From contig NZ_JQKW01000007.1 in assembly GCF_000746255.1 (NCBI RefSeq), forward strand, positions 1 through 64,000: a DNA stretch of 64,000 nt, in the 5' to 3' direction. The position numbers were made by a program, and so were the translations under genes. Position 1 is the stretch's first letter. Each line of letters starts with the position of its first letter. This document shows, in pieces, positions 50,035 to 53,554 of the stretch. The stretch comes from Thermodesulfobacterium hydrogeniphilum. Its GTDB lineage: Bacteria > Desulfobacterota > Thermodesulfobacteria > Thermodesulfobacteriales > Thermodesulfobacteriaceae. The notes below the pieces were generated by a model. It was given only the letters and a program-made list of their open reading frames with translations. It was not told the DNA's origin and made no database searches.

Positions 50035-51345
50035 ATGAAGGTAGCTAAATGGAAGGTTTTAACAGTTGCAGGAGCTTTGGTTCTTGGTTATGCTGTTTCT
50101 TCACAGGCAGTTCAATTAAAGGTTGATGATGACACCTTTGCAAACTTCGGCTTTTGGACAAAGGTCAGGTATAACAACTTTGATGACAGAGCAAAAGATG
50201 ATCAATATGGAATTGATTACAACAGAAATGTATTTGATGTTGTTGATGCAAGATTTAACATTGAGGGTCAGATTAACAACATTGTTCAGTTCTACGGTGA
50301 AATTGTAACAAGTGGTTCTTATGATAAAGAGGTATACGAGAATGTAGGGCTTTCTCGTGACAGTAAGGCAAAGTTTTCTGAGGGTGGTATCAATTTAGTG
50401 TTTTTACCTGAGCTTCAGTTAAGACTTGGAAAGATTCGTATCCCATTCACCAGAGACCAGCAGGAAGCCCGTTATTCCTACATTGTCCAGACAGACTGGC
50501 TCTATGACCCACAAGGTCTCTTTAAATACTGGAAAAAAGGACTCTTAAGACTTGCTGAAGGTGGAGCGGTTCTTCATGGAGAAATTGCAAAGGGAATGTT
50601 TAGATACGATGCTGGTGTGTTCAATCAGGCTTCAGATGACGAGCCATTAAAAAACGTTGCCTGGGCAGCAAGAGTAGAGTTCACACCAACCATGCTTGGC
50701 TTTAACGCCGAAACCAAGACATCGGCAAGAGGATGGTTGCATGACACCTATCTTGGTAAAAAAGGAGACATTTTAAGCATTGGTGTAGGATATTTTACTC
50801 AGGATGTGTCAGTTAGTGGCCCACAATCTATTACTTTCTCAACAGGTAAGTCAGGAATCATAGGTTCAACAGGAGATGTTTTGGGAGGAGCTTTACTTCC
50901 TGGTGGAGATTATGAAGAACTTGATGTTGATGCTTGGACTGTTGATGCTTACTTGGAGAAGAGATTTGGCTGTGCAGTTATTAACCTTGAAGGAGCCTAT
51001 GTAAACTGGAATGACAGCCATATAGGTTCTAATAGTAAAAAAGAAGATTCCTACTACTGGTATGCTAAGGGACAGATCCTTTACGACCAGGTTATAGGAA
51101 TTGGAAAACCCGCTCTCTATGTAAAGTATGACTACATTGAAGCAGATAAGATGTATAACAACGACGATTTTGAAGCGACCCGCTGGGGAGTTGGAGTAAA
51201 CTACTACATTGTAGGAAATGCCGCTCGCTTGACTGTCGGAATGGATAATGTTAACTATGATGATGGTGCTTCAGATTATTTAGATGATAATGGTCTGGAA
51301 GATAATATTACTGACTGGTTTGTCCAGGCTCAGATAATGTTCTAA
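50035..51345 (+). CDS. Outer-membrane beta-barrel porin
   Basis: A 436-residue secreted protein with signal peptide (residues 1-25, ending SSQAVQ), an acidic mature N-terminus and repeated amphipathic strands of alternating aromatic and polar residues. It ends in a terminal Phe (VQAQIMF), the usual signal for barrel assembly. FGFWTKVRYNNF, RLGKIRIPFTRDQQ and YDPQGLFKYW resemble putative porins of OprP/OprO-like or related families; the substrate is not known. Codon choice differs from the neighbours, with more AAC, GAC, TAC and ATC, which suggests high expression or recent transfer. It has tandem promoters and its own terminator, so it is monocistronic. Confidence 0.82.
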   Translation: MKVAKWKVLTVAGALVLGYAVSSQAVQLKVDDDTFANFGFWTKVRYNNFDDRAKDDQYGIDYNRNVFDVVDARFNIEGQINNIVQFYGEIVTSGSYDKEVYENVGLSRDSKAKFSEGGINLVFLPELQLRLGKIRIPFTRDQQEARYSYIVQTDWLYDPQGLFKYWKKGLLRLAEGGAVLHGEIAKGMFRYDAGVFNQASDDEPLKNVAWAARVEFTPTMLGFNAETKTSARGWLHDTYLGKKGDILSIGVGYFTQDVSVSGPQSITFSTGKSGIIGSTGDVLGGALLPGGDYEELDVDAWTVDAYLEKRFGCAVINLEGAYVNWNDSHIGSNSKKEDSYYWYAKGQILYDQVIGIGKPALYVKYDYIEADKMYNNDDFEATRWGVGVNYYIVGNAARLTVGMDNVNYDDGASDYLDDNGLEDNITDWFVQAQIMF

Positions 51346-51354
51346 ACTTTCAAG

Positions 51355-51389
51355 AAAAAAAAGGGGGCTCAAGAGAGCCCCTTTTTCTT
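51355..51389 (+). terminator. Intrinsic terminator of the porin gene
   Basis: The 7-bp stem GGGGCTC/GAGCCCC (51364-51370 and 51375-51381) with loop AAGA is flanked by A and T runs, ending in TTTTTCTT. It is the only strong intrinsic terminator I see in the window, and the A/T flanks could let it work in both directions. Confidence 0.9.
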
Positions 51390-51416
51390 ACCTACAAATT
51401 ACCACTTCGTAAGTGG
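51387..51416. repeat. Left REP-like palindrome of the RAYT unit
   Basis: The 30-base sequence CTTACCTACAAATTACCACTT-CGTAAGTGG matches the right copy at 52085-52114 at 29 of 30 positions, in the same orientation. It contains the hairpin CCACTT-CGT-AAGTGG. It lies between the porin terminator and the stop of the RAYT gene. On the minus strand GTAG occurs beside the palindrome, recalling the tetranucleotide next to E. coli REPs. Confidence 0.85.
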
Positions 51417-51420
51417 AACT

Positions 51421-52056
51421 TTAGAGGTCTTCTAAAATCAAATGTTTGATAATTTCTAAAGATCTCTGATAATCAATCCTATCCTCTACAAATTTTTTAT
51501 ATTCTTTTTTTGAAAAATCAAAAAATTTATTTATTATACATATTCTTTTATCTTCAAGTCCTATGTATTCTCTATAAGAAGAATATTTCCAGTCTTCAGG
51601 TTTTTCCACCAGACCTGCACTAGTAGGATTTAAATGTACATATCTTGTTAAATGTAAGAGCTGTTCATCAGATAACACCGGTACTTTTTTAATCCTTCCT
51701 TCCCAAAGTGGTCCTTTTCTTTTAATTTTTTTATTAAAATACCTGGTATAGCTATCTAAAACCTTTCTCATATATTCAGAGATTCCCATTTCTGAAAGTT
51801 CTTCTAATACTAAATGAATATGTGTAGGCATAATACAATAGGCAATAATATTAACTAAAGGATTTTTACTTTTTGATTGGTTATAATAATTTTTAATTTT
51901 ATTTTTAAGACGTTCATAATAGGAAAATTTAATTTTGGGATTGAATTGATAAAACCTTAGGAGTTTTAATATTCTTCTATAATCAGCATCATTTAGAAAA
52001 ATTTTAAATCCAGCAATACTTTTGGTATAAACATGATATATTTTCCCTTCTTCCAT
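51421..52056 (-). mobile_element. REP-associated tyrosine transposase (RAYT, TnpA-REP)
   Basis: A 211-residue Y1 transposase of the IS200-like HUH class. The HUH motif is H79-I-H81 (MPTHIHLV), and the catalytic Tyr is in DSYTRYFNKK (Y103 or Y106, by comparison with TnpA-REP). KGPLWEGRIKK, RYVHLNPTSAGLV and WKYSSYREY are the C-terminal RAYT signature. The start is an ATG after an AGGAGG-type site. Unlike an insertion sequence it is a single gene bracketed by matching palindromes (51387-51416 and 52085-52133), the configuration of bacterial RAYT/REP systems. Confidence 0.9.
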
Positions 52057-52084
52057 ATTTACCTCCTTTAAATCTTTAATTTAT

Positions 52085-52133
52085 CTTACCTACAAATTAC
52101 CACTTCGCAAGTGGTAATTTATGGTAATTTGTA
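52085..52133. repeat. Right REP-like palindrome of the RAYT unit, with nested hairpins
   Basis: The first 30 bases repeat the left copy. A perfect 12-bp stem AAATTACCACTT/AAGTGGTAATTT with loop CGC spans 52094-52120. An outer 11-bp inverted repeat, TACAAATTACC (52091-52101) and GGTAATTTGTA (52123-52133), overlaps it, so two alternative hairpins can form. The left copy is only partly palindromic. Confidence 0.88.
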
Positions 52134-52165: not shown

Positions 52166-53554
52166 ATGGATGAAAAAAAGCCTTGGGGCGGACGATTTCA
52201 GGAAGAAACAGATAAGTTTTTTGAAGATTTCAGCGAATCTGTATCTTTTGATTATAAGTTAGCTCTTTATGAAGTAAAAGCAAGCCTTGCTTATGCCCAA
52301 GCATTAACAGAAATCAAAATTCTCTCAGACTCAGAATATAAACTCATTTATAAAGGACTTAAAGAAATAGAAGATGAAATAAAAAAAGGAGTCTTTATTT
52401 TTCGTAAGGAATATGAAGATGTTCATATGAATATAGAAAAAGCTCTTTTTGAAAAGATCGGAGAGGTGGCTTATAAGCTTCATACAGGAAGAAGTAGAAA
52501 TGAACAAGTAGTCACAGACTTAAGGCTTTTTTTAATAGATAAAGCTGAAGAATTAAAGTGGTCTCTTAAAAACTTAATGAAAACTATAATAGATAAAGCA
52601 GAAGAATATTATGGAATTATAATACCTGGTTTTACCCATCTTCAACATGCTCAACCTGTTCTTTTTTCACACTGGATTATGGCTTATTATGAAATGATGA
52701 GGCTTCATTTACAAAGACTTGAAGATTATGAGAAAAGGCTAAAACTTTGTCCTCTTGGAAGTTCGGCTTTTGCAGGTTGTGGTTTTAATTTGAATAGAAA
52801 AAAAATTGCTAAAAATCTTGGTTTTAATGAACCTACCAGAAATAGTGTTTTTGCAGTAAGTTCCAGAGATTTTATTTTGGAATTGGCTTTTATTTTGAGT
52901 CTTATTATGCTTGATCTGTCAAGATGGTGTGAAGAGCTTATTATATGGATGAGTCAAGAATTTGATTTTATAGATCTTCCTGATAGGTATTGTACAGGTA
53001 GTTCTCTTATGCCTCAAAAGAAAAATCCTGATGGAGCAGAATTGATAAGAGGAAAAAGCTCTATAGCTGTGGGTGATCTTATTAAACTTATGGTTTTAAT
53101 TAAAGGTCTTCCTTTAAGCTATAATAGAGATTTACAGGAGGATAAACCTCCTATTTTTGAATCCTTAGATACAGTTATAAATTCTATAAAAATGATGGCT
53201 TTAATGATACAAGGTTTAAAAATTAAAAAAGAAAATATAGAAAAATATCTTAATAAAGGTTATCTCCTTGCTACAGAACTTGCAGATTATTTAGTAACTA
53301 AGGGAATTCCTTTTAGAAAAGCACATTATATTACTGGGCAGATTGTTCTTTATGCTGAAAAAAGAGGTAAAAAACTTGAAAAATTAACCTTAGAGGAGTT
53401 TCAAAGGTTTTCAAATGTTATTGAAGAGGATGTTTACAAGTGGTTAACCATAGAAAATGCAATTAAAAGAAGAGAAATTTTTGGTGGAACAGGATTTAAA
53501 AGTGTAAAAAAAGAAATAGACAAGGCTAAAAAAGAAATAGGTTATGAAAATTGA
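52166..53554 (+). CDS. argH: Argininosuccinate lyase
   Basis: Cleaves argininosuccinate to arginine and fumarate, the last step of arginine synthesis. At 462 residues it is full-length: WGGRFQEETDKFFEDF at the start, LHTGRSRNEQV with the substrate-binding residues, PGFTHLQHAQPV with the catalytic His, and the superfamily signature GSSLMPQKKNPDGAEL (catalytic Ser). argG is not adjacent. The ATG has no strong ribosome binding site. It overlaps the Usp gene by 11 nt. Confidence 0.97.
   Translation: MDEKKPWGGRFQEETDKFFEDFSESVSFDYKLALYEVKASLAYAQALTEIKILSDSEYKLIYKGLKEIEDEIKKGVFIFRKEYEDVHMNIEKALFEKIGEVAYKLHTGRSRNEQVVTDLRLFLIDKAEELKWSLKNLMKTIIDKAEEYYGIIIPGFTHLQHAQPVLFSHWIMAYYEMMRLHLQRLEDYEKRLKLCPLGSSAFAGCGFNLNRKKIAKNLGFNEPTRNSVFAVSSRDFILELAFILSLIMLDLSRWCEELIIWMSQEFDFIDLPDRYCTGSSLMPQKKNPDGAELIRGKSSIAVGDLIKLMVLIKGLPLSYNRDLQEDKPPIFESLDTVINSIKMMALMIQGLKIKKENIEKYLNKGYLLATELADYLVTKGIPFRKAHYITGQIVLYAEKRGKKLEKLTLEEFQRFSNVIEEDVYKWLTIENAIKRREIFGGTGFKSVKKEIDKAKKEIGYEN

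Follow-up and report, generated by a model that had tools for sequence, protein, structure and literature searches.

A small REP/RAYT system with a non-GTAG tag at a single-copy transposase locus of Thermodesulfobacterium hydrogeniphilum

Introduction

A 64-kb stretch of Thermodesulfobacterium hydrogeniphilum DNA (hereafter the window, meaning the whole stretch that was analysed) carries a transposase gene between two similar palindromes. What is this locus: a transposase kept by its host together with the REPs on which it acts, the remains of an insertion sequence, or a gene that lies by chance between two host hairpins? To our knowledge, REP recognition has been studied for GTAG-type systems alone, and a locus in which the same catalytic core is combined with a different conserved tag and with replaced contact residues is a natural experiment on tag reading. 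The genus is, in addition, a small and tractable case (14 elements, one gene, clear presence or absence of that gene) in which to ask whether RAYTs move REPs and why hosts keep them. We conclude that the REP/RAYT system found here is real and small, that it comes from a divergent clade, and that its tag is not GTAG and is unlike the tags described. The locus itself is very probably a REPtron, i.e. a single-copy, host-retained RAYT (a TnpA-REP-like HUH nuclease) between two cognate REPs.

Results

The RAYT gene and its protein

The gene, which encodes a RAYT-like Y1 HUH transposase of 211 aa, is located on the minus strand at 51421..52056. Its left and right neighbours, in this and four other genomes, are a porin-like outer-membrane gene (50035..51345, plus strand) and argH (argininosuccinate lyase-like, 52166..53554, plus strand), which give the context and lie outside the system. 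The protein matches Y1_Tnp (PF01797) with E = 1.2e-7, in agreement with the initial annotation, and has its HUH motif at H79-I-H81 and the catalytic tyrosine, Y139, in the sequence YVHLNP. The latter is a Y---NP motif, the signature of class 2, Y---Q being the motif given for IS200 (PMC6006769). This is the one Y1 transposase gene in the genome (1.69 Mb, 13 contigs).

The best-matching family model is NCBIfam REP_Tyr_transpos (NF047646), although the score of 62.3 bits is below its cut-off of 80 bits. Seven other members of the clade described below score 59-70 bits, all under the cut-off, and these values reflect simply the divergence of the clade from the model. The closest solved structure by sequence is TnpA-REP of E. 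coli bound to its REP (PDB 4ER8; E 3e-4). A search of a phage library gave a match to an unnamed family alone. The quality of the AlphaFold model is moderate: pLDDT averages 63 and is below 50 from residue 141 onward.

The palindromes flanking the gene

The left REP, TTCTTACCTACAAATTACCACTTCGTAAGTGGAACT (51385..51420, plus strand), lies just downstream of the RAYT stop codon and has an ACC tag at 51390 and a 6-bp hairpin at 51402-51416; it is adjoined by a terminator-like repeat that follows the porin gene. The right REP, which contains ACCTACAAATTACCACTTCGCAAGTGGTAATTTATGGTAATTTGTA (52083..52133, plus strand), is located upstream of the RAYT start codon, between RAYT and argH. Over 42 nt, the two direct copies (51382-51423 and 52080-52121) share 90% identity, and their 30-mers at 51387 and 52085 have a single mismatch, as originally described. 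Together with its one-base shift, this is the only pair of 30-mers with at most one mismatch in the whole window.

At the right copy, perfect 12-bp arms (52094-52105/52109-52120) enclose a loop of 3 nt, forming a hairpin at 52094-52120 that is overlapped by an outer inverted repeat (52091-52102/52122-52133). The perfect hairpin stands as first annotated, but the outer repeat is of 12 bp and not of 11 bp. Folded as single-stranded DNA, the right copy is far more stable than shuffled sequences (z values of −5.8 and −7.3 for the two strands), and the left copy, in which the 6-bp inner stem alone forms, gives a value of about −2.4. The alternative hairpins that had been proposed are found at the right copy, whereas the second form that recurs in the wider family is a doublet. 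The outer repeat of the right copy may itself be the remnant of such a REPIN-like doublet, of two hairpins at 25-nt spacing. The window contains four matches to the core, against 0.48 expected, and has a GC content of 29%, which bears out its description as AT-rich.

Dispersed copies in the genome

Had the palindrome no further copies in the genome, the locus would be an isolated IS200-like remnant, as the initial annotation pointed out; this was not the case. Alongside the one Y1 transposase, the exact 17-nt core TACCACTTCGYAAGTGG occurs 17 times in 1.69 Mb, and the backwards control is nearly empty. After removal of a genic match, 16 hairpins are left; with two doublets (25-nt spacing) among them, they make up about 14 extragenic elements. 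These counts come from pattern searches, by which degenerate copies could be missed. The core has the form TACCACTT-CGY-AAGTGGTA. The number of elements is low compared with usual REP families, which have 100 or more.

Three matches inside genes were considered as REP insertions and rejected. The mtaB-like gene (L017) has an exact core, but its homolog aligns without a gap, so that the core there is a coding coincidence. In the other two genes, aminotransferase-like (L028) and carB-like (L029), the match has no tag and was read as ordinary coding sequence.

The intergenic copies could also be bidirectional intrinsic terminators or other host regulatory hairpins, built as A-tract, stem and T-tract, with the RAYT between two of them by chance. 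Many copies do read AAAAATTACC..GGTAATTTTT and are intergenic, and the terminator-like repeat beside the left copy would fit. However, of some thirty elements tallied in three genomes, about eleven have divergent neighbours, a setting that calls for no terminator and so argues against plain terminators. An Rfam search of the palindrome matched no known RNA family. Together with the distribution of the palindromes described below, this makes the terminator explanation very improbable. At nine loci (L102, L103, L105, L108, L113, L117, L012, L024 and L027) the REPs stand just upstream of TTGACA-like −35 boxes, which may be no more than their usual intergenic placement.

RAYT and REPs across the genus

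A search of 60 relatives revealed RAYT orthologs of 71-73% identity in four other members of the genus. In all five carrier genomes the gene occupies the same position, with the porin-like gene on one side and argH on the other, and is flanked at either end by hairpins; genus members without the RAYT that were read have other genes upstream of argH. In the four relatives (L042-L045) the RAYT points the same way as porin and argH, whereas in the window's genome it is flipped relative to both. The flanking palindromes may have enabled this flip in place; the argH tree, taken as a host tree, does not resolve the ancestral orientation. Between diverged orthologs dN/dS is 0.10-0.14, with dS values that are high and rough. 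Judged by these sequence comparisons, the RAYT is evidently a single-copy, vertically inherited gene under purifying selection.

Matches to the pattern CCACTTNNNAAGTGG number 19 in the window's genome, of which three are genic, and 14, 11, 5 and 4 in the other four carriers. Among the nine non-carriers, G003 has two and the eight others have none, and the reversed pattern has no matches in the 14 genus members. The palindrome families, of 4-19 copies, are thus confined to the five RAYT-bearing genomes among the 14, a co-occurrence that comes from few, related genomes; this confinement is a further point against terminators. One RAYT, scattered extragenic copies, co-occurrence in the genus and hairpins on both sides of the gene together uphold the original proposal of a complete RAYT/REP unit.

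In the argH tree, the support of which is moderate, G003 nests among the carriers, which fits a loss of the RAYT. The gene appears to be old in part of the genus and to have been lost at least in G003 and in the group of G010, G006, G013 and G001. Another member, G005, lacks the palindromes; its single Y1 transposase belongs to the ordinary IS200 kind.

In G004, G008 and G012, the RAYT is flanked mostly by inverted doublets, which can fold into a single long hairpin (z −11.8 in G008), and G009 has an abutting palindrome pair (z −10.6); the spacing within doublets is constant, at 25 nt. A REP-bearing segment of G008 with ACC...GGT ends, ACCTTCCTACCATCTACCACTTCCGAAGTGGTAGATTTTGGTTTTAGGGGT, is gapped at the orthologous place in G000, G002, G004, G005 and G009. 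This filled and empty site, the one clean empty site examined, is our best evidence for REP insertion.

These observations can be set against the possibility of a decayed or minimal IS200/IS605 element, in which the palindromes would be the subterminal hairpins of a solo insertion sequence and the scattered copies solo-end remnants of past insertions. The predicted core fold matches the structures of IS608 and ISDra2, as well as 4ER8, and the modelled protein would thus share with IS200/IS605 the Y1 HUH fold, along with HUH/Tyr catalysis and hairpin-based recognition; hairpins stand on either side of the gene, and ACC...GGT ends are found on both sides. However, each genome has one copy of the gene, held at the same place in five species under purifying selection, and the motif is Y---NP instead of the Y---Q of IS200 (PMC6006769). 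In addition, the dispersed copies take the form of hairpin units and of doublets with a fixed spacing, and not of IS ends with gene fragments; no full-length gene-plus-hairpin copies were seen at new sites, and there is neither a multi-copy transposase gene nor an adjoining second transposon gene. We consider an IS200/IS605 origin of this kind very improbable.

It is also conceivable, though on balance unlikely, that the RAYT was recruited to another host job, such as REP-hairpin binding for gene regulation, or DNA repair, and has ceased to move REPs; the copies would then be an old, decaying population. This reading is compatible with a REPtron. It would account for a gene held at one site with a dN/dS of about 0.1, for REP sites that are common to several species, and for one visibly decayed copy in G000 (L030). 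In contrast, the lineage-specific insertion in G008, of which there is at least one, and the species-specific loop variants (CGY vs CSG) suggest continuing turnover of the REPs.

Between two REPs of G008 (C2:82264-83202; L108:1265-2203) there is a two-gene cassette resembling a nucleotidyltransferase/HEPN toxin-antitoxin pair. It has direct repeats of roughly 26-28 nt at its ends and is missing from the same site in G004.

The ACC tag

The initial annotation pointed to a GTAG adjoining the palindrome on the minus strand. The tetranucleotide is indeed present, but it lies on the 3' side of the hairpin, within GTAGGT, the complement of ACCTAC. To survey the tag, we took the 20 nt that adjoin the hairpin core on each outer side, for a set of 43 elements (six genomes, 86 outer flanks). 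GTAG occurs on the canonical 5' side in 0 of the 86, and no GTGG was seen by eye in the listed flanks. Instead of GTAG, relative to which the copies were to be mapped, ACC is conserved: it is found in 77% of the 86 outer flanks, against 15% for flanks further out at these loci, and on at least one side of 41 of the 43 elements (on both sides of 25). The tag is an outer ACC(T) 5' of the hairpin, often on both strands, which gives the elements ACC...GGT ends. Bounded in this way, they are without the GTAG and CGTC tags of the REP superfamilies that have been described (Di Nocera et al., PMC3733652).

The protein points in the same direction. Across the clade, the HUH histidines and the Y, N and P residues are kept, in alignment with E. 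coli Y115/N119. In contrast, the equivalents of E. coli E100, H101 and R104, which have been tied to GTAG recognition by TnpA-REP (PMC6006769), are replaced in ten of ten clade members, by K/R/S/N, V/I/F and varied residues, respectively. The missing contact residues and the empty canonical flanks together rule out GTAG as the tag, and since both are absent, recognition may differ from that in E. coli. ACC would be the sequence read by the protein.

Proposed mechanism and comparison with known systems

Single-strand cleavage and rejoining of REPs has been shown for the TnpA-REP enzymes of E. coli, S. maltophilia and Marinomonas (PMC8266576). By analogy with these enzymes, we infer single-stranded DNA binding, cleavage, and the direction and rate of mobility for the present RAYT. 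It would bind the REP in its folded, single-stranded form, as may be exposed on the lagging-strand template when the DNA is replicated, and would be positioned on it by tag and hairpin. Y139 would cleave beside the hairpin, with the metal held by H79/H81, and through rejoining of the ends a single REP or an inverted doublet (REPIN), or a copy of it, would now and then reach another intergenic site. The RAYT gene itself is passed on vertically and does not spread.

The system resembles the TnpA-REP/RAYT systems with GTAG REPs (E. coli rayT, PDB 4ER8; groups 2 and 3) in its HUH and Y---NP core, its single, REP-flanked gene, its dispersed extragenic hairpins and inverted doublets (REPIN/BIME), and its vertical inheritance. 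It differs in the tag, which is ACC and not GT[AG]G, is separated from the stem by a few nt and frequently occurs on both sides, in the AT-rich hairpin, in the replaced E100/H101/R104, and in having about 14 elements and not hundreds. With the TIRtrons (TIRYT; Di Nocera 2013, PMC3733652) it shares a RAYT-like gene with flanking, non-GTAG, inverted and partly self-complementary repeats, as well as a moderately abundant repeat family of monomers and dimers, a likeness in the layout of repeats and gene. Unlike the TIRtrons, it has a conserved ACC tag and a core common to several genera, and the main text of that paper describes no TIRtrons for this lineage. Subclass 2.6 of TnpAY1 (PMC6006769), compared by its description, likewise has atypical flanking structures without GT[AG]G and further copies in the genome, but is found mostly in Bacteroidetes.

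Related RAYTs in other phyla

RAYTs of 50-57% identity were found in MAGs of Nitrospirota and Auribacterota, and related hairpins adjoin these genes. The Nitrospirota RAYT that is 57% identical is flanked by an identical 15-nt core, CCACTTCGTAAGTGG, which also argues against host terminators. In the Nitrospirota MAGs, CACTTCGTAAGTG hairpins occur beside the RAYT as well as at other sites, with 9, 4 and 2 forward matches including the RAYT-flanking ones. For the Auribacterota RAYT, a hairpin (ends AACCT...AGGTT) is found on the upstream side only, and that genome has essentially no further copies of it. A sister RAYT in Bacteroidota (31% identity) is flanked by ACCTTTTCCAAAGTTTAAAACTTTGGAAAAGGT, present in eight copies, mostly near the gene and several with ACC...GGT ends. 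In a tree of 31 proteins the ten clade members group together (support 95/90), apart from E. coli RayT, and the short Bacteroidota RAYTs L076, L080, L081 and L084 fall outside the window's clade. As for the ACC tag, it stands out clearly in the genus and can be made out in L074 and L075; the Nitrospirota flanks are more like GCC, so that ACC for the clade as a whole is something we infer.

We tentatively propose, with a confidence just short of even, that these proteins form a distinct and previously uncharacterised multi-phylum clade (the window's own phylum, Nitrospirota and Auribacterota, with the Bacteroidota sister), the REPs of which are a third tag superfamily, with ACC instead of GTAG or CGTC, read by different residues. 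As many elements have the tag on each strand, the enzyme could act on the two strands of a single element.

In the same family as the window's genome, G020 has a RAYT of 47% identity, flanked by GCACCTGWCAGGTGC, of which this genome has about 30 copies; it has one isolated match to the genus palindrome pattern. On its contig C13 (L166:62-585) there are six tandem units of ~100 bp with the hairpin GCACTTGACAGGTGC in each, so that here the palindrome of another RAYT is amplified locally. In G032 and G034, which belong to the same order as the window's genome, there are 17 and 10 longer RAYT-like genes (open frames of roughly 235-360 aa), compared with the single copy in the latter.
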